Shown here one piece after another: positions 33,285 to 55,039 of a DNA stretch of 64,000 bases. Source of the DNA: Ectocarpus siliculosus (taxonomy: Eukaryota; Sar; Phaeophyceae; Ectocarpales; Ectocarpaceae); contig FN649737.1 of assembly GCA_000310025.1 (NCBI GenBank), positions 1,619,441-1,683,440 on the forward strand, in the 5' to 3' direction. Numbering within the stretch: position 1 is the stretch's first letter; each line of letters opens with the position of its first letter. The position numbers and the translations under genes were made by a program. The notes beneath the pieces were generated by a model that was given only the letters and a program-made list of their open reading frames with translations, did not search any database and was not told where the DNA came from.

Positions 33285-35654
33285 TCACTCTCCCCTCATC
33301 TCATGGTTGGAGTCACCCGGGGTATGGGGGGACGGTTCAGGGGATGCCGGCGCGTTGGGCGGCTTGACGTCGATGCCCTCCTCGGAAGGGTTGTTGTTCA
33401 GCGCCACTTGGATGAGGGTGCAGACATGGAGAAGCTTGAAGAATATGACGGATGAACATGTATCACCCAAGAAAACACGCATATGGTAGCATAAGCAATG
33501 GACGTGAGGGAGGCGAGGGTGGCTATTGGCTGGGGGGTGGCGGGTGATGTTCGACATTCAGTGTTGGACCCGCCGAGAGCATTGTCACGCGGAAATGGAA
33601 GTGCTCTCGTACGCTGTGAAAACCCTGTTGACAGCAAAACGTCTGAAAACGGCTGTGTGTTAGACACTGTTTATTCGCGCTGTTCACGGCACTGGAGTAT
33701 CATATTTGTACCGTCGTAGAAGACGATTAGGTTTCGCCCTTCCCCGCTGCAGCCTGGATTGGTCCACAAGCAGCACCAGGCCTGACCGTCAATCGACGCG
33801 GTTCTTGATAGATTCGACCTTGCTGATATAGTCCCTTACACTGGCTGGTCCATGAGAGAGGTGGCCAGACTATCAGTAACGTTCCGCCTGAACTTTTTGT
33901 TGATACCAGAACGAAACCAAGGTTCAAAGCTCTCGGGTCTACAATGATCTGCGGTCTTAAGCTCGATCCTCGGTGCTTGCTCTTATTGATGCCACAAAAT
34001 TGCTCCCATACTGTATGTGCCAAAGCAGCCTTGGTGTGAACAGCTTCGATCGATGTTAGAGTCGAGAAGTGGACGTGCGTGCCTACCTCGATGACGCTTT
34101 CAGATACAAGCTGGGCCTTGCTTGGCTTGCTGTCTCGCTGCCTGTCACCGGTACCTTCGTGCCAAGTGCCATGGCCACCAGCGCCCCAGGTGTAGCCCCG
34201 TCTGGTTGTGGATATGGTTATTGGCAAGAGCAAAGTGCCCAAGAGGTACGGGCATGAAGAAGTACAGCACTCTTCATAGTGCCAAGTTGTCCCGGTGGAA
34301 GACAAAATAAGCGGCGAGGCTGATGCTCACAATCGGATGGATCATGGGAGTGTTGCGCCTTGGACTAAGATTTCACATGGACGGGTATATCTATTAGAAA
34401 TACACCGACCTGCCCAATTTCACCGGTATTCCGATTTGGCAAGTAGCGGAACAATAAATAGTTGATGGCAGCGGCGTTCCCTCTTGGTTAGTGTTGTCTA
34501 GGAGTGAGCGATAGCGAGCAAAGGAGAGAGCAAGGAAGAAACAATGAAGGAATCAGACTGAAACGGAGCAGCTAACCTGCTCACAGTGGTCGGATCCGCT
34601 CCGTACTGCACACGATCATCACAGGAAAAGTTGTTCACAACACGTCAACGCGACGGGGGAAGGCTCTTCTTCGCGTAAGGCACACGTCGAAAACGAGCCC
34701 TCCCTCCCCTCCCTTCCTCGCTCTCCCTCTTTCTCCCTCGTTTTCTTACCCTCCTACTCACCTACTCACAACCTACCCAAGCCCCCAAGGTTTGGTGTTT
34801 TGGAACAACACGTATTTTCTCTCACGTACGTACGTGTGATCGGAGTCGTCACTACCCTCGGTTTCAAGCCTTCGACGGGCACGCTTGGGCGCCAGGTTGC
34901 CCGACGAGTCCCTTTCAGACAAAAGAAGGCGAGGAAGGGATAGGGTGGGGGAAGAATTCTGTTCACGGTGATCATGACAAACCCTACACCAACAACGCCG
35001 TTCGTAGTTAGTTGTGGATGTGAACGTGAACAAGTGCATGCAGCAAAACCGCAAGAATCTGGACGTTCGGGACTATCTTCCTAGAGTGCCCCGTGCGGAG
35101 GAACATAAAGGCTGACTGAACCACCAGTTTTGTGTGTGTGTCATTTCATATATACTGGAAGCCCGCCTTTACTTCCTGCATGGACTATCTATGAGTTTCG
35201 GACGCACAGGAACAGAAAGGTCACAAGGGGGGGGGGGGGCGAACAACGGAGTTCTTTTTCTGTTGTTTGTTTTGCGACACCGTCTGCGATGCTTACCCAC
35301 ATCTTTGTCGCAAGAACGGTGAGACTGCAACTGCTCTCGCTCACCGAAAACCATTTTTAATCGCCCCGGTGTGCGAGAACTTATTTGGGTATGCACCTTT
35401 CTGGGGTGACTTCACTGCCATGCGCATGCCCATTCATCCCCGCGGAGCTGTCCATGCTACCAACCAGAGTGTCGGAACTTCGAAGGCGCTGTAGATTGGA
35501 GTGCAAACGTGTACATGTCAGTGAGGGCTGCCCGCCAGACAGATTGATACGTGGACTATGAAATAAATGCTTGAGCAATGACTAGACTACAGTACGACAG
35601 TAGGAGCACCTACCCTGCGGTGCCGAACACCCGCGACATGTAGTCCGTCCTCTT
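33285..35654 (-). CDS. Unrecognised minus-strand gene, three phase-linked exons (C-terminal part)
   Basis: Three exons share compatible phases: 35654-35614 (KRTDYMSRVFGTA plus two bases), 34911-34826 (contains a basic cluster KRARRR like a nuclear localisation signal, then ETEGSDDSDH) and 33406-33285 (NNNPSEEG followed by a Pro-rich tail and a TGA). Acceptors have pyrimidine tracts, and the donors are GTAGGT and GTGAGA. The product end looks disordered and charged, as in many nuclear proteins. Upstream exons were not found. A donor GTGACT inside the last exon (~33312) would allow splicing on toward 32251, so the two minus-strand models could be one gene. Confidence 0.45.
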
Positions 35655-36922
35655 CTGCGCACGACGGTATGATGCCCACACGACGACACGATGATACACG
35701 CTGTTTGGACGCACTTACACACCATCGTGTGTACATGTTTTGGAAAGCACAATTCCAAACAACTCCCCAAATGGGCGACGCTGTTGATCGATATTCGTAC
35801 AAACGACACGATGAACACAGAGCTAGCCAAGAGGCTCCACAGCATGCATCAATACTGCTGTCACGCATTGTTGACATTAGAACAATCACCTGCGGCTTGG
35901 TTTTAACTACTTGTTTCGTCGGTCTTCGCTCTCCTGCAGCAAGTTCTCCGCCGATGAGAGAACAGCTCGAGCCCGTTCGCGCGTCGGAAACAACAGCCCT
36001 GCTGAATTGTACAGCAGTCGTCTATGGTATGAAATTCAAAATCTGAGATGCGAGCACAGCAATCCTTGATAGGAGCCGAATACCGAGACCAGTTGAGGAT
36101 ATGGGGTCGTTGCAAATGTACGCACGCTCTTCCCCGTGCTCGCTCGCGTTCTTCTTTGGCTGCCACTGCTGACGATCTGGCGGCTATCCCTCAGGCCTCT
36201 GTCCTCTGTCTGCCGTGCGCTTGTGCTCCTTGATCCGTCTTGCTGGTGTCTAGTGTCCTATTCCGATTGGTGGAGTGCCAAGGTTCTCGAGGGAACGGGT
36301 TCTACTTTTAGTCTGCACCCCCCCCCGGCAATGAGCTATCTTCCCGACACGTCGCCCCCCTACCGCGTGTGCCCGGCTCCACACCACACAACAACAAGTG
36401 CAAGACACGGTACCACACAACAGGCACCACGCCATGGATGAGGTAGTACGGCTCAAATCTAGATTTGTGTCGTCCAGGCCTGGCGAGGATTCATCTACTG
36501 CACCCACGGTGGGTACTTGAATAGACTGCTGTTCCGTGTCGTCAAAGATACAGATACGGGTTGCTGCCGAGGGTAGACAATCAGAGAAAAGATTCAACGC
36601 CCCATTATAGAACCAGCTGCTTGGGATGCACGCCTCCGTCCAGGTATGACTGATGCTAATCATCTTGGTGGGCAGGCTTTGTCGTGAGTCTCCTCTGGTT
36701 CATGTAGTAACCCTTGACAGCAGACGAACTCTTTCCTCAACGGTCGTGCGGAGGAACCTTCCGCGAAGGGAAAAAAAAAAAAAAATGGTGGGTATGATAT
36801 TACCCTCTCCACCCATTGAAGCAACCTTACCTCGTAGCGCAACGGTTCCAACGGCATTTCCCATGTAGTGCTCAGTCGCGCAACTCTCATTTTTATTGCT
36901 GCTGACACATCTCTCTGCACAG
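35655..36922. promoter_or_regulatory. Divergent intergenic region; DZIP1-like first exon not found
   Basis: Between a minus-strand gene and the plus-strand DZIP1-like gene. It should hold promoters and the initiating exon of the latter, whose first recognised exon starts at a clean acceptor (CTCTGCACAG) at 36922. No start codon could be placed with confidence. Two octamers (near 35850 and 36012) and a third near 36519 lie here. Confidence 0.4.
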
Positions 36923-39900
36923 GGGCCCGATGCTTCCGCTGCGAGACTTGTTGAGGGAATCCTCAGGCGCAAATCCTTTTACTTTCAGCAGAGAACCGGC
37001 AAACTGGACATGCGCGCAATCGGCCGGGTGGACATAGCAAGCGTGGTCAAAGACGTGGACGTTGATACACTGCAGGTCAGGTGGTATAAAATTTTACCCT
37101 CGCGAAGATATTCAGCCCCATTAAATCACGTCGAGGTTGGCAGCACCGAACGAACCAGATCGATCAACACGCCTCGACGGCTCGCACAAGCACATGCCTT
37201 GCACACACAGCCTCGCATCCTGTGCGAAACTCCTATTTTGTTGAGACTCAGGCCCATGCCATGTGACCGGTTCCGCAGCTCTGAGGGCAGGTTGATGATC
37301 GAAGGACAGTAAACTACGTGGTGGTTTCGCCGTGCGAGCTTCTCCGAACATCGGCATCGATGCTACTGTAGAGTACGTGTAGACAAACTGGTCCTGCTAA
37401 GCGCCTTGAACAAGGTCTTCCCAGCAGTAGTGGTGAGAACTACATATTATGGACTGCGTTCAAAGAAAGTGACAGAGGGGGGGGTGATTTCGCACGTCAA
37501 CTATGTCGATGTATGTGGGATTTAGGAAAACACGTGCGTTGTTCATTGGGCAACATGATGAAAAATGCGAACGGAAGAGGCAGTTAGTTAGTTGTTCAAG
37601 CACGAAGTAGCACGAGCTCCGATCATGGAGGTGTATCCGGGACTGCAGTGTAGCACAGAAAAAAATTGTGCACGAAGTGGAAGGATTCGTGCCGGCGATA
37701 TCGGTACTGCGGAACGGCGTTAGCTGCGAGTGAGTGCAGCGTGCACCGCTTTGATGCGTCGCAATCACAAATAGCACGTCTTTGAAATTTGAATTGCCAC
37801 GTGCCGGACGACACAAATGCACCATGTACCACAGAAAGTACGTCGATAGCCTGCGATGTGCACAGCTTGCCACCAATGTTGCCTTGCGGCATGACAGCTC
37901 GAGTGTATGCCAGAAGTGGGAAGCTCTGTCTCTGATGATGATCGTCCTGACTTTGTTGACAAGGATGGTTTGTTTCTTCTCTGGTACCGACGTATCTATA
38001 GTGCGTCGGATGATGACGTCAGGCTGTCCGAAGATGGCAATCATCACCCGCCTTTGTCATGCCGCAAGGCAACATGGTCCCGCCTATATTACGTCCCCAG
38101 AACTGAAAATGAGCCACAAGATACCCAGCATGAAACACAATACAACACACACATCTCCCAACAACAATTTAGTAGTCTGCACCTTGAAACGAAAATTACC
38201 ATCATCGTGGCGTTACAATGAACGCCTAACGCCACGATGATGATGGTGATTTTCGTGTAGAGGGAGGTGTGCATGTTTGTGGCGAAATATACAGAATACT
38301 ATTTGTTGTTGGGTTTGGGTTTTGTTTTGGGCACGTGTTTTTAATTTTCAGTTTTGCGGACGCTTCATGGGCGGAACCATGTTGCCTTGCGCAAAAGCTG
38401 TGTAGATCACGGGCTCGTACATGGTGCATTAGTGTCATCCAACACGTGACAATTCAAGTTTTGTTGATTGACAAACTCAACCGCTACCCAGCAGTTACAA
38501 CGAGAATGTGCACATGCGCTCTACTTGTTTGATACCGTACTTTCCATGCGCAAAAAGGCAGAAACGATGCCAAACAGGCGTGCGTCTCATGCGAGAGAGG
38601 ATTAACAAATGACATGTGTTGGCTTGTTTTGTTTTTTGTTTTGGATGTTTTTTTAGGTTTTCAATTTTCGGCACGCAATATGTACAATGGCGTGATTGGA
38701 GTACACGCGGCATTTACATCCGTCAGAGGGTGATGGTTTGAAAAACACATAATACTCTAGACTTCGCGAGCATTCTAGCGAGCTTGGGCAGTAGGAAAAA
38801 ATAGTTTTGCTGCGTTGGCGACGTGTGCGATGACTCGTGGTTAGGATTAGCACGTGCTACATACCACTACCAACACTAACCTTCGTTCCAGCCATAGGTA
38901 TTGAAGGAATCAGAATTAGAACGAGCTCGGCATATCTGCTTGATCAGCCAATCACAGCGGATTTGCACAGCTCTACCAGTAACCCTACAAGTGTCGGTTG
39001 GTACTTGGATATACGCGAGGATCTTTGCAATGTTTTGAAAACGCATCCAGTACATCGTTCCGCCGACTGTAAGTCCCAACCATAGATCTGTTCTGGGATG
39101 CTGTTGCACTTCCCCACCACCGGACACCTTCAAGAGCGACACAGCCTTGAAGAAGATGAACCACCACGGTTCTAGCCATGAAGCCACTTCATCTTCATGC
39201 TGGGCGCATGCTTGGGGTAGTCCCAGTGGTAGATTTGCCCAGGAATCTGGTTGCGCGTCTCTTCCACGACCGGGTACCTGCAGTCGAGGAGACTTGCAAC
39301 AAGATACCGGGTAAAATCTAGGGTTGGGCCCCTCCAAGCATCCGCCCAGTGGGGGTGAGAGGCTCTATGGCTTGAAACCCGGTGGTCCATGTTCTGCAAG
39401 ACCTTGTCGCTCTTGAAGGCGTCCGCTCCGGTATCGTTGCGCTGTTGTTCTCTTGCTGCTGCGTGTGCTGCTGCGGCTCGTCTGCTTGAGCCGTACGTGG
39501 CTTACTCCCCCAGCTTCTCCACCTTCCCAGACCTCTACGACCGAACAAGACCCCGTACCACCCGCAGGCAACGAGAGTCCCAGTGCGGCAACAACATCAG
39601 CTAGATAATCTATTGGTCCTGATATGTAGTTAACCGCATTCCGTGCCACCTTTGGATTGCAAACCTCGACACAAGGCACGAGCTTGGGTTTCAACGGAAG
39701 ACGTTAACGCACGTTTCGAGGGTTCGTGTACGCATGTGCGCGTGCCCTTGTCTCTAAAGGTCGGCGACACAAGTCTACTTACTCATAGCCGTCGGGCGTA
39801 CGAGGTATGTTGATTCGGTATGTCACTCGGTATGCACTTCGCCATTGGCAATGTCGGCGAAGGGTGCAGCTGCAGTTATCCCTTTGACCCCCGTTATACG

Positions 39901-42900
39901 TTGACCTAATGCGGAACAACAGGCCCATTTGGAGAATATCACTTTCGCAAGCGTTTCGGAGGATGACCTGCGGCTATACTCCGATCAGTGCTTCCTCAAC
40001 CTCTTCCGGCTCAGCCAGCTGCTGCTCGAATATTTGCTCAGTGTCCAGGACACACTCGCCACGAGTCTTGAGGTAAACGGCCAGTCCTAGCTGTAAACGG
40101 CCCGTCCTACCTACGCTGCTCGGATGGTTGTTCCTATTGTCGCGACAGGCCCAAAAAGGCTTGCCGGGGTAACGACCAACACGGGATAGTTGAAGCAACG
40201 TTAGCATTCGTTCCTGTCGTAATCAATTGTCGGCACCGCTCCATAGCACGCCCTCCACCTAATGCCGTGCCGCGGGCTTATGATTCCATGTCGGGAGACG
40301 AAGTAGGAGGGACTTGACCCCTTCGGCACCCAGCCCCGGCACCAACAGCATCCCTTGTCATAGCCCTCCGACGCAGGAACTCTTCAAGGCTTTTGAACGC
40401 TCACAACGGTCGTGCAACCCGCAATACCGGAACAGGCTCTAGCGCTAAAGCACAGCTCTGTCCGAAGGTCCTTGGATAGGGGTAGGGCGGAGCTTCACGC
40501 CGCATCAGAAGAGGTGCAGTGCAACTCTATGACCAACGTTTTAGTTTAATGTTTCTGTGTCAGCTACGCGGGCCGACTTCATTCGCTGTGCCTCGAAAAG
40601 CACTCAAGCGTAACAATGTGTGGAATTTCTATTTCTATGCCTTAATTGGTCGAACGGAACTAGCAAGCTGGCTGGTTCTGACCGATTGCCCTTGAAGAGC
40701 AATATAGGTTACTGTTTCGACTCATCCGGCAGGGGCCAACCAGAGTTGTGCTCCTGACGCTATCCGACACAGCGAAACAAAAAACATCTTTTGTGTCCTA
40801 ACTTCTGTGAGCACGTGAACCGAAACTTTCTTCGTGAGTACCTTTGAGCGTGTGGGCCCCCTTCTCTCTCTGTGGTTGTGTCCGGACAGGACCGTGCTCT
40901 CAAGCGAGAAATTCGCCAGAAGCGGGCCACCATCGCCCGGTGAGCTCTATTGTGTTTCACACCTGGTTCTACGCAACGAAGCTGCACCAATTGTACCAAG
41001 GAATGTTTGTATGGAGGCCTTACTCAAACCCACTCGACGAGAATTCCGGAGGCGGTTGATCAAGTGAAAGCATTACGAGTCAGTCGGCTCAGTAGCCGGT
41101 TTCCTCCCCGCATCGAACAGAGTGCCAAAGCGATATTCGCGTCTACGGACAAAGCCGTGCGAAAAGAGGACGCGGGTGTAGAGCATTGAGAAGCTGACTG
41201 CGATATGGGCGTATTCCACTGCTGAATGCTGTTGACGGTGAACGATGCTGGTGTTCAGGTATGAGCAACTCCTTGCCTTACCCGCACCGCCATCCGGCCG
41301 AGACGTCCCGGGAGGCAACGGCGGAGGCTTGCACTCGTGCCTCACATGCGGGAAGATGTTCACCACTGCCGAGTTCTTACAGCAACACATCGCCAGGAAG
41401 CATGCTCGGCACGCCGGTAGCTCTGCAGACACGAAAGTCGATCAAGAGGAGAAAACGGCGTATCCAACGCAGCTGAGGCTGTTCGTGCAGGTATGACGCC
41501 GTGGCATAACACGATACGTATTTTGCTAGAAAACCACCGCTAAGGAGCGGTATCTTGAGTGAAAAATGAAACATATGTTCCATGGTTGCTCTGTTTCCTT
41601 CGCAGACATCACCTCGAAATACATTGGCAGACGTTGGCCCACCGGCGGGATGTCGTAGCCGCTAGCATCCAAAGGAAGAGCTGCATTGTTTGGTGGAAAA
41701 ACTCAACGGGGAATGTAGAGCGTTCAACTGAGTGAATGTCTCGAACTACACGTACGTACACTGAGCGCGATAGAAAGCTGGGCAAAACCTCAATGTTTAT
41801 ATGACGCCATCACTATCGAATCCGCCACTGAGATATTGGTCATTTCCAAGGTTACACAATGATACGTTACCACAGTCGACCTTTCCACGCCGATGCGCTC
41901 CAGACTAGTGCCGGCCAGTGCCTGGACATGATGGTTCAAGGGGGAGCGACGGTTGCGCAGCTGAAGGGGTACATCAACTCCGCGGCGGGTTGCGCAGCTG
42001 CTGGTCCATCAAAACGCCTCCTGTATAGGTACAGAAAGGCCCTAAATGCTGGGAGTGCTTGTACAGCGTTGAACCTGGATAGCCCTTGTCAAGAGGAGGG
42101 GGCATGGCAAGCGAAGCGGGGAATGGCGAACCACGTTTTGACTTGTCGGCCAAGAAAAACAAAAGCTACCTATGTGCAAACACGATTGTCATGCGACGAG
42201 AGCATGCACGGCTCCTCCAAGAATCCTCAACCAGTTGCATACATGCCGTTACCATGTCGTTCACGCGTGTGTTTGATAATGTTAGAGGCGTGCATCTTCG
42301 TGACGACCAGACTCTGAGAGAGTGCAGCATCCCACCAGAGAGCCAGCTGGTACTTATCGACACGGAGGTAAGAGAGAACGCCCTGTCCGACCTACTTAAA
42401 TAAAATAGGAACACATTGGGTGACAAGGCCGCAGAGAGACTATATAGGCTTGATTCCAACGCCACAAAAAACGAGAGGATTCAATGTAGAAAATGCAGCC
42501 GGAAAATAGCAGCCGGAAAATGCAGCCGGAAAACCACGAATTTGTGATTGCTAGTTTTCATCGAAGGCGGCCTCGTCTCGCCTGCCATCAGTATCAGTAT
42601 CAAACGATGCCGAGGAGGAAAATACGTCAATGTCGCCATGTTGCGACACTTCCCGTGTGTCGCAGCACAACCCCACCATAAAATCGTGCTAACCCATCAC
42701 GACTCCCTAACAACCGAGAGATGCTTTTATCTCTACCACGAGGGGTTCCACCAAAAATGTCGGCGTTCGGGAGCGTCATCACATTCCCCCGTTGCCACTA
42801 TGGTAGCATGCAAAGCGTCGATGTGCCATTTTTTCGTTGGTGTTCGTAAACTGAGGACTCCGTCACCTTATGTTTATGTTGCTGTGTTTCATGAAGTCCA

Positions 42901-45900
42901 CAGTAGAGGCAGAGAACAAAAGAACGGCAGGAGAAGAGGACAACGGAAAAGCTGCCGCCGTTGCTGCTCAAGAATCAGCCGCAGCGAAGCAAATGGCGAC
43001 CCTCGTGGACCTCATGCGACAGCAAATGGAGTGGAACATGAGGAGTGAGAGCGGCAGGCGGGAGAAGGATCTAGGGTCGGCCGAAGCCCTAGAGACGAGA
43101 ATGAGAGGGATAGAGGTATTATTACGTTCTCCCGTAAGAGTATGCTGTCCCGCTACCATCCTGCTTTGATTTCTGCATCCAACGTGGCTGGGACGACTCC
43201 TCCGCGCTGTTTCTTTGACGTGCTAGAAGTGACAACTGGCCTATGGTTGCCCCGCTCAGTTGTCAGGCTCAACCTTTGGTAGGGGTGAGGTTAGAGGAAA
43301 AGATCACCCGTCCTTCCGAGTTAGGAGGAGCTTGGTCAGAGAGCAGACTCACTTTGTTGTTCAGAAGCAAAGTGTGTAGCTGAAGTCAAGCCCCCACTTC
43401 AGACTGCCTCGAAGCGCTAGGTAGTGTGTCCTCTACTTTTCACCGTTCGTTGTCGTTTTCTTCATTCCGTTGTTGCTGTCTTTCTGGGCGATGCTTGTTT
43501 TAAACCGTTCCCTCGACTTTTTTTCCCATTCCGCCAGGTGTCATTCCTCTCCTTTCAATGGTGTACAAGCATTCCGCCTATCCCTCCGTATTCACCCTTT
43601 TGTTCGTAACTAGGGATGTCCTTCTCCGTCCTTCTAGCATGCGTCAACTCTCTCTGTTCACTTTGTGCGTTCGTTTCGTTCTAGGCGTCGCTACCTCGGC
43701 GGCTGGAGGAGTTCATGGAAGAGAGCGTCGGCGACCTCAAGGCCTCAGTACGCCAGGTGCCGTAAACCCACAGCAAACACAGCGGTGACCTTTGGAATAT
43801 TCGACTGCCGTCCCTGGCCAAATATGTGCGTGTTGTGCAGCATGTGCGGATGACATCGTGTCTTGAAGGCGAAGCCCACGACAGCTTGCGATATCATTTG
43901 ACCTGGAAATATGTTCTGGGAGGTATGCAGCATTATCGAGGCTTAGGTTTGGCTAGGCAAGAGAAGTGTCCGCCTCGGAAACAGCCCTCCTCAGTTCTCA
44001 GACGATGAGTTGGGCACGAGTAGCGTGGTCCAAACGATGTTGCCGCGCCAAGACTGTAATCGCGTTTCAGGTAAGCCACGACGAAGGCACTTTCACTCGT
44101 TGCTCGCTCGGTCGTTCCACCCGACAACGCGGCACTCTTCCCAAAGGCTCTAGACGGTATGGAGGAACTGCATGCGAAACGGTCGAATGCTGGGGCGATT
44201 CAAGATGATGAGGACGAGACGAGGAGAAAGGAGCAACAGGTGAGGTGGGGCCACGCACATCTTTCAATGGTTGCGCTGGAATGACCGGTACATATTCGAG
44301 GCGCGCCCTGGAAAATAGTGTTGGGGTATGACGTGTGGCGGCGGATCGTACCCGATAGTAGTGACGAGGCAACTAAGCGAACAACACATGATGTTGCATA
44401 CCTATTCTACCGTGGCGCTTAAAAACAGTCGTGGCTTCGGCAGAGCAAAGGGGAAGCCCACGCCGAAGAAGCTGCAGTGTCGGCTATCCATACAATATCA
44501 CCACCCTGTTATGCCCATTCGATGTGAAAAACAACCCTCCGCACTATTGATTAACATTCAGACCCAGCCTGAAACAAATGATCACTTCGGTAAGGAACAG
44601 AGACTCAATTGGTACCGAAAAACGAATGTCGGGGGTTAGAAATGCAGATCAGCGGAGGATCTTGTACTTCATTCTAAATGGTAGTATCGAAGACGGCGAT
44701 GGAATATGACCCTGAGCCTCGACCCGAACTTGATTGACGTTTATTTATTGCGGGTCCGTTCCCATAGGAGAAGTTGCGTCTGGCCTCGCTGTCGGCGGAT
44801 ATGGAACGCGTTTCCAAAGAGAATTCAGCCTTACTGCAGGAGTTGGCCAAGCTCAAGGCCCCACAAGCAGCGGCAAGCCCTACCAGCGCAAGCACTGTCC
44901 AAACCCCAGCGGCTGTGGTCGTGGTGAAAGAGGAATCATCTCGACCTGAGGTGGGGGGGGTGCGGGTTGTAAACGGGTAGTGGCTTGCGTGGACGACATG
45001 AAGAAGGCTTGAGCCATTGAATTCCGGCTTGCGCAGTCATATTGGTTCTTGGTGCACGATTTGCATGCCTTGGATGTGACAGACCGAGGTTGGAAGCTCT
45101 TGGGTTACTCGACAGTTGTGGGGAAAAGGCTTCTCGGAAGCTTTTCTCGTTCCATCCTGAGTTTTCGCTGAAAAGCACGGAATCTGCCGAAGTGAAATTG
45201 AATGTCACCTGTCTACAGTACTGCTACCACAATAACCATCGTGCGAGCACGTAATCATGCACCATACAACCTTTGCGTGAAAACGGCTCCGGCGTTTGCC
45301 CGCCGTAGGGTCGCCATCCAAGACAAGGCCCTACAGACTGCGTGAGCACAATGTAGTTGGCACGCGAGGCAACCCACTTTTCTGCCGTGTTAGAAAACGA
45401 GTCCCAGCCACACGCATGAATACACTGCGCACTCCTTTTCTTATCCAACGAAATGCCCCTCCACGGTTCTTCATAGGTTTCGAAAGCTGTCTCTGAGGAC
45501 CCTGTGGCACCCCCTCCCAACCCATCGCGCAACACGTCAATTTGGGAGTTGGTGAGTTCTAGCGTGACTATTCGAGGTGATCCACTGCCATGCATCGTTG
45601 TAAGGTCTCATTTACGTGGGGTACCAGTACCACATTGACTGTGGTCACAATCCCCAGCCTGGTACGTCACGTGTTCGGGGCGCTACGAGTGAGTATCTTT
45701 GCCGTGTGGATATCAAAACATGATGCAACGGCGCACGTGGAATGACGTATCCACCTCAAGTTTCAGCCGCGCATCCACTAGACAAGATATCAGTTGGGTC
45801 GGTCTTTCGCCCAGGACTCATGTACTGGCAGGTGCACGTTGTCTGCTTCAGTTTGTCAGGCACATATGTAGGTAAAACGACCCCGGATAAATAACAAAAA

Positions 45901-48900
45901 ACAATGTCAAGGAAACGATGGCAAAAGCCGGACACTTTGTCCTATGTACGACCGCTGCCAGCCATTTACACAATGTGGGGCTGTTCAGGGTTAAAGCGGA
46001 CAATACTTGATTTTTCCTAAAGGGGGATGGCCATGACCGCGTTGTTGGTGGAGTAAGTCTATGATTCCTGCTGCATCTTCTCTCATCTGCGCTGGAACGT
46101 CTTGGGTTCACTCTGTTGGCACCTCGTGTGCCGTCCTTCTTGCGTTGACTCTCACTTCAGACATTCCCGGCGAAAGGCTCGAGACAAGCCGTCGTCGTCC
46201 AAGTGTCGCGGAAATCCACGTGCGAGACTGTGTGCGAGTCTATCGCCGAGAAGTTAGACGTCGCCGACGCAAGGATCGTCTTGCGTGACAAAAGCACAGG
46301 CAAGATTCCGTAAACAATCTTTAGTTCGCCGCGGCAAGAGTGCACAACTCTCGTAAAGGCTTGAGCCAAAAGCACATTTCTCTAGGGGTGTTGGCCTGGG
46401 AACAAGGTTAGACTTGTCGATTTACGGCCGTGAGCACGCAATGGAAACTGCAAGATTGGAAGGGGTCACTACCCTCCGCCATATCGGGTGAAGCACAATG
46501 TAGTAGCACCCCCCGCCGCTGCCCTCAAAACCAGTTCACGCATTTCCATGAGACAATCCACGATTCTGCGATCGATGTCAGGTGCAATGGTCCCTCTAGA
46601 GGCGTTGTCAAACGAACTCCAAGACCTGTACGGCAGGGGTTCTTTAAAGTTGGAGGTGCTGCAAGGGCATGTGCTATCCGACAACGCGGTGAGGGCAAGC
46701 TCAAGGTTAAAAGTTCTTCGTACGATATAGTCTAAGACCTTTAGAACATCCATGTATTCGGAGAAGTCGACACAAGAGATCGCCTAGCCCACTGGACGGG
46801 ACGCTGTTAAATTACAGATAGGTACAGAGGAGAAAGAAACGTTGGTTCTTCGAGTACTAGAAACCAAGTGAACGTCAGGGCTACGAAACACATCACAAGT
46901 TCAACGGTTGGGTCAGACAAGGGAATCTGTGCCAGAGTGCGCGAGATCTCAAAACCATCGTACACACTCTTTCAATATATCCATGTTTTGCGGTTCTACG
47001 ATGCATGATTTGCAGATGGGAGAGCCCTTTCGACTGTCCAGTGCCTCACAACGTGTCTGACTTGCTTATATTACTGTCTCCAATTCTTCGTCTGCTACTT
47101 CCGAATATTGGCCGACATCGGATAGAATACGCGTGCACCTTGACGCTACTTATTGATGTTGCTCGCTGAGTCATACTTGATGATCACGACGATTTTCATT
47201 TTTGTTTCATCAGGTGGACGGACTGGTCGAATTCTACGAGCAGAATGTGCCAATTCAAGCTAAGGTACGCGAGAAAGGCAGTTCATTCAGTGCATCACCC
47301 TCATCGCATTGTATGGTTCACTCTCGTCGCGTCTGTTGGGGCTCCTGAAGTAGACTATATGCGGATTTGAATACTTGGTTGGCGGGGTCACGCCAGGGTC
47401 AACAACAAAGAGTATATACGTGTGTACCTAGCCCACGTCTCCCCGCGTGGGCGTCCCTGAACCCGTGCTGGTCGTTCCTCTTGCTTCTCGAATGAGTTCA
47501 ACGCTCTAGCCACTGTGTACAAACATTCTAAACCTGCCGTGTATCGATATTGACAACTTTCGCAGTTTGGTGCTTGTGTTGGTCCTTTCTTTCCGAGCGC
47601 ATAGGAATTACTCGTGGTATTAACTACTGAGGTGTTCATTGCACATTCGCCTCTGTTGATATCACGAGACTACCGACGGTAACAACATTCGGTATGCAAT
47701 CCTACACGTTTCACAGGAGTCTTCGGTGGTGGGACAGTCTATGGCCGAGATCGATTTGGCTGCCAAACGGCACGTCAAAGTCGGCCAGAAGGGGAAGGGG
47801 GGCGACGGAGCTTTACTGGGACAATGGGGAGATCATGGCGAAGACGGCAATGACCACGCCGAAAAGCAGGTGGGCACAGGAAACATGGGGAAACTACGTT
47901 GCCACATGTTGCTCAACATCGTGCCAAGTATTGGCCAAGGCGCAGGCTAGGTTCAACAGGGGTGGTGGCTATCATGGTGATGGTGGGGATGAGGCTTCTG
48001 TCCGCCGAGAAGGGCGTTCTCAGTCCCAAACCGATTGGACACCGGGGTATGATCCGGAGTGAAAAGCAACCCCCCTCGGGCTGCACTGTACTCTCATGTG
48101 CCGCGATAGGTCTCAGATGGCTTCCTTGAAGGGACACACATACCTTCTTCAAGAATACGAAGCTAGACTTCTCATTAGCACCATGTGACCGAGGCCTTTC
48201 CAGATCGCGTGTAGATCGCGCCCCGCTTGCACACGTAGAAGATCAACAAAAACCCAAGCATGATGTATCCAGCCGTGGACTTGTAGCATCTGGCAAGAAG
48301 TCAACATCATGTGCCGTCGCCGAGTTAGTATCAAACCTTTCTGGTGTTACCTTCTTCGGCCAGGTCGAAAGCATCCGCGCACAGCTCTCGGCAACCCTGA
48401 CCTCCGAACGCTTCCCGGCCAACAACACCGACCTCTCCAAGAGCGTCAGCATCAGCCGCACCGCCCCTGGCCTGGGTCTCACCGCCAGCAGCACCCCCAA
48501 GGGCGGCACCGATGGCCTTGAAGAAGACGATATATTTGGCGATACCGAGGGGGAGGACCACCTGTCACTTGCGGAGCTCGAGAGGACAGTGGAGGAGAGG
48601 AAACGGTTGCGACCACCTGGAATGGAGCGTCAGGTGCCACAATTTACTTCGGTTTTGTTGTAATACTTCGGATGCGCGCCTCGCGGCATGAAGACAAGCT
48701 TAAACTTGTCGGGGTTCGTTGTGCTTCGCTTGAAGGTGCTTTGGCCTGGATGGAAATTGGGTGGGTGCAAATACTTGGACTTGCCCGGGGGAAAAGAACT
48801 ACGTTGACGATGTCGAAAGAACCAGGCGGGCACAGTCTTCTTGCGCCTTGCAGATCTCATTCCGTTGCTTTCATATCGATTCCAATTGTATCCATATATC

Positions 48901-49933
48901 GCAATGCCGTTAGAAGCTGACGTCCACGCCAAACCAAGAGCCATTCCTGCGGGCGTATTCCGATACAAATTCGGCCTGGCCATTGCATGTGGTATTTTGC
49001 CGGCGTCATGCCCGTGCACCAAAGCACGTCAAGGTTGACGAACAAAAAGACTGTGTCCTCACTCAGCAGTGAAGTTGATACAATCCTTTCCTACCCACCT
49101 ACTTCACTTTGCTCTTGCGCGCTATTCATTGTGCCAGATGGAAAGCGTGTCAAAGTCCATGGAAAAACAACTCAACCAACTTCTGGAGAAGGCGGAGGAA
49201 GAGCTGCAGCAGCTAGAGGAAGACAGCCTCGGGTACGGCCCTTTGGAAACGAAGAAAAACTCAATCAAGATCCACCGAGATGCACCCATGCGACCAGTCC
49301 ATAGTCGCGATCTGCATTTGATGGTGGTGACCGCGATGATCGTCTGTGAATCCTTAGACACGTGTTGGTTCTTTAGGCGCGTGGAACCAGTCCATAGTCG
49401 CGATCTGCGCTTGATGGTGGTAACTGCGATGATCGTCTGTGAATCCTTAAATGCTTTCTGGTTCTTTATGCGCGGGTACGAGGTGTAGTGAACCTCCGAA
49501 CAGGCGAGACCTCGTCTTACAGGGCACACGCCCCCTCCCCCGTTTATCCCTTTCGTCTTCCAGGAGTGATACCTACAGCTCCACCGATCCCTCGGAATAC
49601 GCGGCTGTCCCGCCCTTAGCAGACTCCGCCCGAAACGGCAGGAGCTTCCAGGCGGTGGACGCGGAAGATGGCGGCCCATTCGGCAACTCACGCCAACAGC
49701 GGCACAGTCTCGAACCGCGCTCAAAGCGCCCGGGGGAGGGAAGGCTAGAGGACGAAGACATTCCCAAGAGTGACTGGGGCAGGACATTGGACACGACGGT
49801 CTCTATCCCGGAGGGCGCGGAGGAAAGGGCCGACCAGCACGAGGCGAACGCGTCCCGTGAGCACGCCCTCCAACACGGTGGTATTTTTGGCGATAGTGAC
49901 AAAGAGGATGCTGCACCAACGGGGATGGCGTAG
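36923..49933 (+). CDS. DZIP1/Iguana-like ciliary protein with C2H2 finger and inserted ubiquitin-like domain (20 exons, >=862 aa)
   Basis: DZIP1 proteins act at the basal body and transition zone in cilium assembly and, in vertebrates, Hedgehog signalling. Exons: 36923-37075, 39923-40072, 40890-40939, 41259-41490, 41904-42028, 42286-42367, 42909-43115 (start approximate), 43685-43756, 44147-44239, 44768-44950, 45477-45551, 46161-46299, 46600-46688, 47214-47264, 47717-47869, 48364-48633, 49138-49232, 49564-49933; splits complete codons at each junction. Modelled residues (5' exon missing): Dzip1_N 1-101 (FYFQQR, LENITFASVSEDDLRLYSD, FRLSQLLLEYLLS), coiled coil 102-118, C2H2 finger C145/C148/H161/H166, ubiquitin-like domain ~188-264, coiled coils ~265-440 (QMATLVDLMRQQMEW, ENSALLQELAKLK), second possible ubiquitin-fold segment ~476-550, another coiled coil near 710-735 (LLEKAEEELQQLEED), and an acidic Ser-rich tail. 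Intron 46300-46599 appears GC-AG. The list gives 18 exons seen; an initiating exon must exist upstream. Confidence 0.85.
37780..38475. repeat. Large imperfect inverted repeat in the DZIP1-like first intron
   Basis: Text from 37787 (TTTGAATTGCCACGTGCCGG, then ATGCACCATGTAC) and 38060-38215 (GCAAGGCAACATGG, ACTGAAAAT, GAAAATTACCATCATC) reappears in reverse complement between 38475 and 38229. The centre is a tight hairpin around 38195-38254. This is the structure of a foldback or MITE-like insertion. A further diverged direct copy of the TTTTGTTTTGG...TTTTCA segment lies at 38620-38670. Confidence 0.55.
38476..39922. other. Rest of the DZIP1-like intron 37076-39922; no exon seen
   Basis: The flanking exons give a continuous Dzip1_N domain with no missing residues, so no exon is needed here. 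Minus-strand open frames (38876-39337, 39172-39399, 39318-39694) overlap in several frames and contain suggestive but unplaced text such as NQIPGQIYHWDYPKHAP. They may be relics of a mobile element. Confidence 0.4.
49290..49480. repeat. Two tandem ~93-bp units inside the last DZIP1-like intron
   Basis: Copy one starts near 49295 and copy two near 49388; both run CCAGTCCATAGTCGCGATCT, then TTGATGGTGGT, then GATGATCGTCTGTGAATCCT. The period is a multiple of three, and the repeat stays open in the frame of the preceding exon (49138-49232) until a TAG at 49486-49488. Confidence 0.85.
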
Positions 49934-51377
49934 GGGAAAGGAGATGTGGACATGACCGCGCTTGGTGCCTCGGTGGAATCCCGGGGAAGGAGGGAGAGGC
50001 TGATTTTCCGTGTGAATTCGGTGACTGCGGTGGCGGACGCCAGTCTGAAAGGAGATATCCGTTGTTTGGCGTAGGTGCGAAAGATCTGAGCTTGCGGTTG
50101 CCGATCAGCGTCGTTCGTGGCATCCCTGCAATGTCTGCCGGATGTTCCTCGGAGTCCGGTGTCAGGTTCTCGGATAGGTGGTCCTCCGTACATGTCAACC
50201 ATTTCTCAACGCTCTGTTTCAATGCCCAGCCGGTGAGTTCGCCGCAGGTGGTGTGGAATGACTCGTAGTCTTTGACACGTACGAAAGCTATTCATGCCAA
50301 ACCCTGAGCCTAATCCTATTCCTAACCCTAAACCTAACCCTAAACAATAGAAACAGCGGGGAACAGCACAGCCTAGCCCTGACCCTAGTCCTATTCCTAA
50401 CCCTAGACCTGACAATATTAACAGGGGGGAACAGCACGAGGTGTTCGGTTCTACACGATGTCACGCCAAGCGTCTGGCTTGACCTCTCAGCAAGCAACGG
50501 CCTTGGCCGGACGACACCGACACACCAAGCACTGTCGATTGACAAAAATGCTCCCCACAGCAGTAGTTGTAACGATACATCCCTCATTGACCGCAGTATT
50601 GACTGCTTCAGCTACGATGGTCGTCACAAGCTGGCTAGTTGATTGAACGGAGCGCACGAAAAACACTTTCAGCCGGAACAATTCGTCGGAACATCTCCTC
50701 ACGCCTTCGACTTGTTGATTTACCATTCTTCGTGCGTGCACCACCCGCACCTTCAACACCCACACAGAAGATAGCCCTGACCACAATAACCCATCCCTGG
50801 CGTAGCCGTTGATGTGCATTGCCCCCTCTCCCAAAAGATATTGAGCTGCTACCAAAACCGCTGTGGCTTTACGATTCTTTCCAACCCTGAACATCAGCTT
50901 GTGCAACAGCGCTTTCGTCCGCTTGGAGCCAGGCTCCAGTACTGTGCAGCACAGATCCCCCTGACATCTTCACTATCGGACTAAGCCAAAATGTCTGACC
51001 TTCCCACGTATTCGAAGTGGTGGCCATCACGGTCAGCAACCGATAAGAAAATCAGCAACAATAGACGGACGCGGCAGCGCGTGTGAGGTTGTTGTAGTCA
51101 GCACGTATCGTGTCAACCTGCTGGCCAATGAAAAGACGCCAGTTCAACTTGAGCTGTATGGAACCAACCAAATAAGAGAATCCGGGATCCAAGCGGTGGT
51201 TCGGAGCGTGAAACTCAGAGAAGTGCGCAATTGTGGAACGAGGGTCTCGGCACAGGAGGGGGGCAGATCGACGAGGACGCATACCAGATACACATACGAA
51301 GTAGGCGGCATCCCCTCAACAACACACAATGCCACGGCTCAAACTCCCCCACGCCTTCCTTTACTTCCACGCTATAT
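49934..51377. other. Convergent intergenic region, DZIP1-like and ankyrin gene 3' ends
   Basis: Both neighbours end here, so this should be largely 3' UTR. A 139-codon minus frame (50487-50906) has no recognisable motif. A telomere-like array lies at 50301-50437. Confidence 0.45.
50301..50437. repeat. Interstitial telomere-like array within a tandem duplication
   Basis: Two copies of a unit that runs CCTATTCCTAACCCTA, further CCTAA-like words, then a GGGGAACAGCAC tail: about 50301-50368 and 50372-50437. The first holds CCTAACCCTAAACCTAACCC, a mix of CCCTAA and CCCTAAA units. Confidence 0.75.
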
Positions 51378-52914
51378 TTACAAGAATGAAACCACGAGGC
51401 GAAAAATCCCCTCCTCCTGCGCGCGCACGACCCAGTAAACGCATGATCGGAAGGCCTCCTCGTCGACCCCTTGTATCCTCTTACTGCCCTCGTTGTTGCT
51501 ACGATGCCTTCCCCGGCAAGGTTGCTTTTCGTCTCGAGCGCCAACGGCCTTCGCTACTACTGCACCAGCCGCCGCCGTTGATCCACAGATCTCCACCATC
51601 GCCCTTCCTGCTTCCTCGCCCCCCCCGACGAGATCTCCCGACCAGTCCGCTTCCCGCGCCCGCATCATCACGACCCAAGACCGGCGACGCCATGCCCTCT
51701 CCGCGGGAGCCTTGGCCAGCACGATGAGTATCCGTTCGCGCATGGCCGGGTCCCCGCGTAACCTCCCAGCCTCCTCGTCCAGCCCATCTCCCAGCACCTC
51801 AGCGCAGGTGTGGTTATTGTTGTCTCGTGCGGCTTCGTCCGCGCCCCGGTGGAGCAGGGTGGAGACGATCGCGAAGTCCATCATCGAGCAGGCGTGATGC
51901 AACGGCGTTTCCCCGTGGGAGTTGGTCGCCGTAAAGTCAGCCCCGGCCTGCTCCAACCGATGAAAGGGGCCAGGGGTTCCAGGTCAAGAAAAGTATGCAA
52001 TGTGCCATACAACGGTAGGTTGGTTCTTCAGTAGTGTCCATGGAAAGGAACAAACCCGTTTGGCTGTCTGGGGATGGAACAATGTACGTAATCATTCCCA
52101 CGACAAAGTGAGCGAAACGAGACACTCAAACGCAAACACCCGTACCTCCAGTAAGGTCGTGAGAACGCCGTAGGATCCTTGAAAAGCTGCCAAGTGTAAC
52201 GGCCTGTTGAGCGTGCCGGCCTGCACCTCCTCCGTAGACGCTCCCGCTCCCAAGAGACATCGGGCTACTTCCACGTTGTCCACCGCGGCAGCTGGGGTTG
52301 AAGGGTCGCGTGGAAGGGTCGAAGAAAGACAACTTGTGACAAGCGAAATGATGGGCAATGTAGTTAGCCTACGGGTGGGTGTATTGCACAGTCAGGCCCC
52401 AACACATTAAGGTGAATAGGATGCAAGCCACGATGCACACAGAACCACCCTGGGCACAAACGTACCGATGTGCAAACTCGTGACTCCTTCGGTGTCCGGA
52501 AGGTCAACGTCTGCACCCCAGCGCAGAAGCTCCTCGGTGACGGCTCTGTCGCCCAGAGTCGCAGCAGCATGCAACGGCGTCCGCCGCTGCCACCCGCCGC
52601 TCCGGATGTTCACGTCCGCTCCAGCGGCCAGCAGAGCCTTCACGGCTCCCAGCCCACCCCTTCCGCTCGCGCAATGCAAGGGAGTGAACCCTTGGGTGGT
52701 CAGGGCGTCCCTGTTGGCTCCTCCCGCAAGCAACACGTGCACCATGCCTTCCAGTCCTCTCCCGCATGCAATGTGCATGCTAGCGAGACCTTGGAACGTT
52801 GCCTCGAGATCGGCGCCCGCCTGAATAAGGAGATGGACGACCGAAGCGGGAGCCTTGATGGTGGCCCTGTGTATGGGTAGCAGACCACTGTCGTCTCTTT
52901 CGTTTAGCACATAT
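51378..52914 (-). CDS. Ankyrin-repeat protein, seven repeats
   Basis: Scaffold of the ankyrin class, partner unknown. Exons in transcription order: 52914-52466, 52291-52146, 51947-51378; all three junctions keep frame (the split GCT completes LHIAAAVDNVEVA, and LLE joins AGADF). Seven consecutive repeats occupy roughly the first 235 modelled residues, with the repeat cores LLPIHRA, LASMHIA, FTPLHCA, RTPLHAA, VTSLHIA, NRPLHLA and ETPLHHA, each followed by LL..GA(D/N/S). The remaining ~150 residues are Arg/Ala/Gly-rich with no domain seen and end in a stop at 51378-51380. The 5' end is open: the first exon starts with the third base of a codon. A candidate upstream exon at 55040-55118 fits the phase. 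Regulation not visible. Confidence 0.82.
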
Positions 52915-55039
52915 CTGTGAAGGCAGCAAGACCGTCGAGAACGGCGAATTTTGTCAGTCAGAGGCTCCAATCAAACACGGTATGTGCCGGGAATATACTG
53001 CAGCTTGCATCAGATTCACGACCGTGCACCACCGCCCGCCATGGTCCCACAAATTGAGTGAACGTGTTTTTCTTGCGTGTGTGTGATTTGACGTGCCGTT
53101 CAAGCTGCGGACAGGTGCATGCTCAAGCGCGCACCGCAAGACACCGCAAGACACACCCACCAGCTTGCCACGAGCTTCTCGTAAAATGGCACAATGGTGG
53201 GAACATGCCAACTCCGAGCATGTGCGTATATGGGTCACAGGGGTTGTGGCGGATATGCATGCGGTCGGCGACTTGGAAATAGTCTTCAGCATGTTCGTGA
53301 TAGTTGCTGCTGTGTGTGTCGACAGAGTAACGTAGGCAGTTTGAATTGCGGGACTGTCGGCGTTGCAGATCGCTGAGTAGCCACATATTATCAGAACAGC
53401 GAGGAACGTTCAGCAGGAATGTTCTTTGTGGATAGTGCATCAGCCAGAGGATTCATGGTACGTTGTGAAGTACGTTAGCCCCTGTTTAGTCTCTTGTGTT
53501 TCGATGTTATTGTGTTCCGGTATTGTGTTCTGCTTTTGTGCGTTGGTCGAGCGACATGGATGGTCGCCCCACCCTTGCTCACTCCAGTCTGCTACCCTGT
53601 CTCTCGAGCCAAGGTCTCAACAATACAACATATTTTCCCCAGAAGCAACGAAGTTTCCAACACAGCAGCCACAAGACACAAAAAAAACTGCAGGAGATGC
53701 TTGTCACGGGTATAGCTGTTATAGGATTCAGATGTGTAGACGGAACATAGAAGAGAATGGTTCCTTCTAGAAGGCGCGGAGAGATGTAACTCCCCGCGGA
53801 AGGATAAAATAGGGGATAGGGTCCAGTAGCCCCTGCTTGTACTGAGGATCCTGCGCCCCTTGGTGTCATTCCTACCGATACCCAAGGCAACAGCCACTGC
53901 TGCTGCTGTTCTACAAGAGAAATAACAAGTGAGTTCTTCATGGGTCTACCAGACTTCATCACGCGTGCATACCACCACATAGCCGCCTGTAGGGGCTATT
54001 GAAACTCGGAATTCGAACGGGACTTCAGCAGCACCAATCTAGAAGTTCGGAATTCGATGACTGGAATGGTATACTACTTGTAGGTTGTTGTTGTTGTTGT
54101 TGTTGTTGTCTTAACATTAAAAACCGTTCCGTTCTCTCTGCCCGGTACGTTCTTCTGTCCGTACTAGTCAACACTTGACGGGGTCGATTCCCGTGGTCAC
54201 AGGCTAACTTACCCAAAAAAAGGTATACGAAAATAAAATGGATCCGAAGGATGCCTTCGCTGACTTCGCCGTGTAGGGCGAGCCTAATCCATCGCCCTAT
54301 GCAGCGTCACTTGCTGTGAATGTGAATCTTCATGTCTTGATCGTGGACAATGGTTCCGACCAGAAAAATCCCCCTGATGATACGAACCTCGCCTGTGGCA
54401 GTGTACACTCTTGTTGCTGAGAGTTTTGTAGCAGTTCGTTGTCTCTGGTAGATAGAAGCATGCTTCCTGATCCTGCGAAGCACCCACCCACACCGTTCAC
54501 CCCGGAGTCTACACACTGTAGTCTATATAATGCACTCCCACAAGGGTCGGCAAAGTACGGGAGGAATTCTTGCTGAACGGCGGGGACGGAACGGGTACCA
54601 TTGCTGCGCATGCGAATAGCGAATAGCAGCACATGCTTGCTCTCTGCTGACTGCGCACTTATAGCTCGAAGCCCCGTAGGCGTGCCAGGGGATCTCGTGT
54701 GCAGAACTTGCAAGAGCACTACGTGTGTGATGCCCGTTTTTTTTGACACACGAAACCCTCTCGCAAACACTTTTACATGTACATACAGCAATACTCCCCG
54801 TATCGTCATGTGCATACATACCTTCCACCCTGTTTTAACGCACACGCCACACTCGCATTGTCTCCCGTCCCGATCGCTCGTACAAGTCGGTTCAAGCATC
54901 TTCTTCTCCATGCCTGCTGGGCCTCGGGGTTGGGCATTCCTCTACGACACTAGATGTTCGTGTGAACGCGGTGTTGCCTAAACGCGAAATTCTTGCAGTG
55001 GGAGGAGAGGCCCCTGGTGTGTGCACGGCCACGAGCCAC

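Follow-up and report, generated by a model that had tools for sequence, protein, structure and literature searches.

A candidate DZIP1-like protein of Ectocarpus siliculosus with a ubiquitin-like domain directly behind its zinc finger

A 64-kb stretch of the Ectocarpus siliculosus genome (GenBank assembly GCA_000310025.1, contig FN649737.1, positions 1,619,441 to 1,683,440 of the forward strand; here the window, with positions counted from its first letter) carries a DZIP1-like gene that appears to have a ubiquitin-like domain (UBL) built in frame into its middle. The gene was modeled as 18 exons on the plus strand, at 36923 to 49933, which join without an internal stop. It would encode, in order, a Dzip-like_N domain, a single C2H2 finger, the UBL, coiled-coil-like stretches, a possible RA-like domain, and an acidic tail. 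We consider it highly probable, going by the joined exons, that Dzip-like_N, a C2H2-pattern finger, UBL, and coil-like sequence lie in one predicted protein. An earlier note on this DNA had proposed the UBL directly after the finger and knew of no DZIP1 protein of this kind; no fusion of DZIP1 with a ubiquitin-like domain is described in the open-licence literature as far as it was searched. The domain order is real at the level of sequence and, within the reach of those searches, undescribed.

The two domains that define this architecture were both recovered above their Pfam cutoffs in a search with the predicted protein of 868 amino acids. Dzip-like_N scored 92.9 bits (E 1.7e-26, cutoff 27.9) over profile positions 1 to 102 of 118, which places the protein in the DZIP1/DZIP1L family and bears out the DZIP1-like N terminus of the earlier note. 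The match is spread over exon 1 (36923 to 37075, first half of the domain), exon 2 (39923 to 40072, second half), and exon 3 (40890 to 40939, its end); the first two were also found by a genome search with PF13815, for exon 1 at C12:1656417-1656518, C12 being the contig of this gene, and exon 3 is placed by Pfam and the splice model. The ubiquitin family (PF00240) scored 33.5 bits (E 3.6e-8, cutoff 25.4) at residues 192 to 260 and 36.0 bits when the UBL was scored alone. A 459-residue version, made with a tentative start exon and exon 7 taken from 42897, gave 94.3 bits for Dzip-like_N and 31.6 for ubiquitin. Between them, the translation of exon 4 (41259 to 41490) contains the finger pattern C-x2-C-x12-H-x4-H (CLTCGKMFTTAEFLQQHIARKH), and the UBL follows directly in one reading frame. 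The UBL occupies the tail of exon 4 (QLRLFVQ, first strand), exon 5 (41904 to 42028; strand 2, the helix, and the beginning of strand 3), and exon 6 (42286 to 42367; the remainder). It reads ...LVLIDTE and continues into exon 7, lacking the C-terminal Gly-Gly of conjugated modifiers, so that the UBL would be an integral domain and not a modifier. Behind it lies coiled-coil-like sequence, as judged from a crude heptad count. When the UBL was compared with PDB sequences, the best 60 of 338 matches were by name ubiquitin, polyubiquitin, and ubiquitin fusions or derived variants, along with one labeled Uba1. These 60 align from query residue 6 to 11 through 80 to 81, and the single-domain entries among them have E values of 5.6e-6 to 1.2e-4; the lowest E values come from polyubiquitin chains that match repeatedly, at about 18 bits per repeat.

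A split domain assembled from two short exons could in principle be a chance match, and a ranking of exon pairs speaks against this. Every exon pair of the window, from either strand, that was consistent with splicing (AG at the borders, a donor beginning GTA or GTG, matching phase, no stop) was enumerated and scored against a profile made from one human ubiquitin sequence. The pair 41904 to 42028 plus 42286 to 42367 ranked first of 50,646, with 16.7 bits; rows 2 to 9 were border variants of the same pair, and the best pair with a first exon starting outside 41801 to 42029 reached 5.8 bits. The control used exons of 90 to 160 and 60 to 110 bases with introns of about 80 to 700 bases and is valid for this type of split only. 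Codon statistics were best in the claimed frame for exons 5 and 6, and both other frames contain stops; the exon 5 score (0.02 bits per codon) is barely above the 95th percentile of equal-length open intron stretches (-0.05).

Whether the UBL exons belong to the DZIP1-like gene is best judged from the tail of exon 4, where QLRLFVQ lines up with strand 1 of ubiquitin. Exons 5 and 6 joined to this tail scored 36.0 to 36.1 bits against ubiquitin, and the match then began at profile position 1. Eight of the 12 eligible other exon tails of the gene were tried in its place, with exons 6, 14, 15, and 16 left out, and these gave 33.0 to 34.5 bits with matches beginning at positions 7 to 12. The exon 4 tail also lifts two related models, Rad60-SLD (18.6 bits versus at most 15.2) and Ubiquitin_4 (19.9 versus at most 17.0). 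The tail is thus real evidence, by a modest margin, that the predicted UBL is part of the DZIP1-like gene. The same comparison bears on a reading in which exons 5 and 6 form a separate small nested gene, running from an ATG at 41859 to a TAA at 42401 to 42403 with intron 6 kept. Such an open frame is present and encodes 95 amino acids that score 32.7 bits against ubiquitin, but its product would lack the first strand (profile positions 11 to 67 only), exons 5 and 6 with the nested ATG start reach 33.1 bits versus 36.1 with the exon 4 tail, and a strong donor at 42367 would be left unused. We regard the nested gene as very unlikely.

The exon borders are consistent with one continuous chain. 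The exons lie at the coordinates given in the earlier note, with AG and GT borders and with phases that hold the frame through exons 4, 5, and 6; exons 4 and 6 are both entered in phase 2 and show stops if read from their first base. The donor of exon 6 (GAG/GTAAGA) is the second best of 17, with a score of 9.7. The claim that all junctions keep frame also stands, although the junction into 42909 is less clean, being preceded by GAG and having an acceptor score of -3.4. A CAG and a TAG within 5 bases upstream of 42909 would break the frame, and use of the CAG at 42901 to 42903 as the exon 7 acceptor would place a TAG at the joint. A scan of the intron between exons 6 and 7 for a micro-exon compatible with a CAG acceptor at 42904 found none above its thresholds. 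The other phase-0 AGs in the scanned stretch, for exon 7 starting at 42897 (-8.4), 42915 (-1.3), or 42939 (-4.2), are all weak, leaving the start of exon 7 (42897 to 43115 at its longest) uncertain among four positions that are all in frame. The predicted protein has 868 residues if exon 7 starts at 42909 and 872 if it starts at 42897, start codon excluded.

Several results weigh against this reading of the gene. Exons 5 and 6 alone score 33.6 bits, leaving about 2.5 bits to exon 4, and the best foreign tail is only 1.6 bits behind the exon 4 tail. Among the 18 acceptors of the gene, exons 6 and 7 have the two lowest scores (-1.1 and -3.4, leave-one-out), in a crude matrix built on 17 sites. 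The finger scores 18.9 to 22.0 bits against zf-C2H2, below the Pfam cutoff of 25.2. A further reading is that the UBL exons are an optional cassette, skipped in most transcripts, with an ordinary DZIP1-like protein as the main product. Exons 5 and 6 together measure 207 nucleotides and are in phase 0 at both ends, as a cassette would be, and the weak acceptor of exon 6 (-1.1) fits as well; however, the first UBL strand lies in exon 4, where skipping would leave it useless, and exon 6 is followed by a strong donor. The exon 7 acceptor does not discriminate between inclusion and skipping, because all of its options keep the frame and skipping would need the same acceptors. On balance we think a mostly skipped cassette unlikely and prefer a UBL retained in the chain.

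A function can be proposed from the family and from the UBL itself. The N-terminal part would anchor the protein to the basal body or to the transition zone in algal flagella, the place of DZIP1 in animals. In Drosophila, according to passages of PMC7793253, DZIP1 is recruited by the N terminus of CEP290 and binds Rab8 through its own N terminus, and at the transition zone both CBY and Rab8 act downstream of it; the same passages have DZIP1 helping to build the gate at the cilium base. Excerpts of PMC4091656 likewise place DZIP1 at the basal body. A basal-body location, taken from the family only, is somewhat more likely than not. The UBL, fixed in the chain, would dock a receptor for the ubiquitin fold, for which the proteasome, p97/Cdc48 cofactors, and UBA proteins are candidates; turnover or remodeling would in this way be brought to the flagellar base. 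We put forward this docking mechanism, which derives from the nature of the domain, tentatively, as we do the ubiquitin-pathway or autophagy-like partners suggested in the earlier note. DZIP1 is already tied to ubiquitin in that it stabilizes Spop (work cited in passages of PMC4091656), described in an excerpt of PMC12159753 as an E3 adaptor.

The residues of the UBL give a mixed answer on docking. In the alignment with PDB sequences, the positions of ubiquitin Ile44, Gly47, and Val70 are taken by Leu, Gly, and Ile, whereas those of Leu8, Lys48, and Lys63 are taken by Ser, Val, and Pro, and these last three substitutions count against the proposal. Positions 8, 44, 47, and 70 are what we take to be the docking face of ubiquitin, and this face would thus be partly kept, with Leu, Gly, and Ile at 44, 47, and 70 but Ser at 8. 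For the predicted UBL, docking is possible, while conjugation and chains through the Lys48 and Lys63 positions would not be. Alternatively, the UBL may serve as a structural spacer that separates the finger from the coiled coil and has no partner in the ubiquitin pathway. The change of Leu8 to Ser, the loss of both lysine positions, and the missing conjugation end are all compatible with a spacer, yet Leu, Gly, and Ile at 44, 47, and 70 preserve part of the docking face, and we consider the spacer rather unlikely. Taken as a whole, a UBL-bearing DZIP1-like protein acting at the flagellar base is the best explanation we can offer, one that we hold to be evenly balanced between right and wrong, with most of the weight carried by the architecture. 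The boldest form of it, in which a brown-algal DZIP1 paralogue links protein turnover machinery with the transition zone of the flagellum by means of its fused UBL, perhaps helped by a second beta-grasp domain, is speculative and on present evidence improbable. Such wiring, if true, is unknown in animal DZIP1, and a built-in UBL would give a handle on how turnover is coupled to flagellum assembly or shedding in heterokont algae.

The UBL gene has relatives in the same genome (189 Mb, 492 contigs), where Dzip-like_N gave five exon matches in three places, on C12 (the UBL gene), C26, and C475. The predicted UBL protein is perhaps a diverged paralogue, one of at least three genes with this domain. 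The C475 gene has a Dzip-like_N of 82.1 bits, its exons joined by eye, and a C2H2 finger of 18.6 bits, below the cutoff; its finger exon stays in one uninterrupted frame for about 100 residues, at first charged and of low complexity and then coil-like. No ubiquitin match was found by Pfam at E up to 10 in 216 residues covering the Dzip-like_N, the finger, and the coil-like stretch that follows. The C26 gene (C26:276500-286400) has a Dzip-like_N of 51.4 bits and an extended open frame of low complexity; inspection of the unmodeled locus showed no finger near its Dzip-like_N. These genes bear on the possibility that the order found here is not lineage-specific, as the earlier note had supposed, but is ancient and widespread among the DZIP1 proteins of stramenopiles and sits in databases under automatic names. 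The C475 gene, with a finger and without a UBL between finger and coil-like sequence, argues against this but is silent on other species; we give an old and common order somewhat less than even standing. A protein search of the genome with the N-terminal 333 residues (E up to 0.01) gave eight matches, seven on C12 and the eighth the Dzip_N exon on C26. The UBL exons were thus not found duplicated in the genome, and a similar search found no further copy of the C-terminal half. A genome search with PF00240 found 43 places, none of them on C12; it cannot exclude other split UBLs, because the C12 UBL, split over exons, was missed too. In the prokaryote and virus contig collections no relative was confirmed among 30 and 6 pattern matches, respectively, as expected there. 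As a separate observation on this genome, EsV_1_7_cys gave at least 150 matches (880 candidates, of which 150 were scored); passages of PMC7457493 describe this family as expanded in brown algae, with which the matches agree, but also as patchy across eukaryotes and present in viruses.

The remaining exons complete the model. A candidate start exon on the plus strand at 36626 to 36643 encodes MHASVQ, with an ATG followed by a CAG/GTATGA donor and phase 0 into exon 1; this assignment is tentative, being one of seven candidates in a scan of 35000 to 36900. Exon 7 is charged and helical or coiled-coil-like; exon 8 (43685 to 43756), exon 10 (44768 to 44950, with the strongest heptad pattern in the crude count), and exon 17 (49138 to 49232) are coiled-coil-like. 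Exon 9 (44147 to 44239), exon 14 (47214 to 47264), exon 15 (47717 to 47869), and exon 16 (48364 to 48633) are placed, like exons 8 and 17, by the splice model and codon score, and exon 11 (45477 to 45551) by the splice model with a slightly negative codon score. Exon 12 (46161 to 46299) and exon 13 (46582 to 46688) would hold the two halves of the possible RA-like domain. The stretch 46161 to 46688 has the look of a possible second beta-grasp (KGSRQAVVVQVSRKSTCETVCESIAEKLDV...SLKLEVLQ) joined across a GC-AG intron, exon 12 having the one GC donor of the model (16 of 17 are GT). Its match to PF00788, which covers exon 12 only, reaches 17.0 bits when the stretch is scored by itself and 13.1 bits within the full model, short of the cutoff of 21, and its 4 weak matches to PDB sequences are all acetyl-CoA carboxylase. 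Exon 18 (49564 to 49933), placed by the splice model and codon score, encodes the acidic tail and ends with the stop TAG at 49931 to 49933.

Repeats lie in and beside the gene. Intron 1 (2.8 kb) contains at 37785 to 38461 nested inverted repeats that look like a palindromic MITE-like insertion, with arms of 45 nucleotides (87% complementary) and 48 nucleotides (83%), and of 25 nucleotides (84%) around a 32-nucleotide center. The last intron has a 93-base unit in two tandem copies with 87% matches (49293 to 49474). Just downstream of the gene, at 50300 to 50345, is a short telomere-like tract of AACCCTAAACCT units (79% matches), followed on the minus strand at 51378 to 52970 by an ankyrin-repeat gene whose frame 52407 to 52970 scores 80.8 bits against Ank and whose frame 51378 to 51956 is ankyrin-like by eye.

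Among known systems, the predicted protein can be set beside two. With integral-UBL proteins of the Rad23, ubiquilin, and parkin type, the algal protein shares an internal ubiquitin-family domain lacking Gly-Gly. It differs from them in that its UBL lies in the middle of the chain and not at the N terminus; no UBA domain appears in the Pfam list of the whole 868-residue model. The closer comparison is with DZIP1/DZIP1L (Iguana, PF13815), which has in common with the algal protein the Dzip-like_N domain, one C2H2-pattern finger behind it, and then coiled-coil-like sequence. The C475 gene of the same genome also shares the Dzip-like_N and a finger below cutoff and differs in having no UBL before its coil-like sequence. 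For the three zebrafish iguana/DZIP1 isoforms, the excerpts of PMC4091656 give a single C2H2 finger and no other defined domain. To this common plan the algal protein would add the UBL directly after the finger and the possible RA-like domain further on, and a UBL-bearing form of DZIP1 would show the gain of a domain inside a conserved ciliary family.

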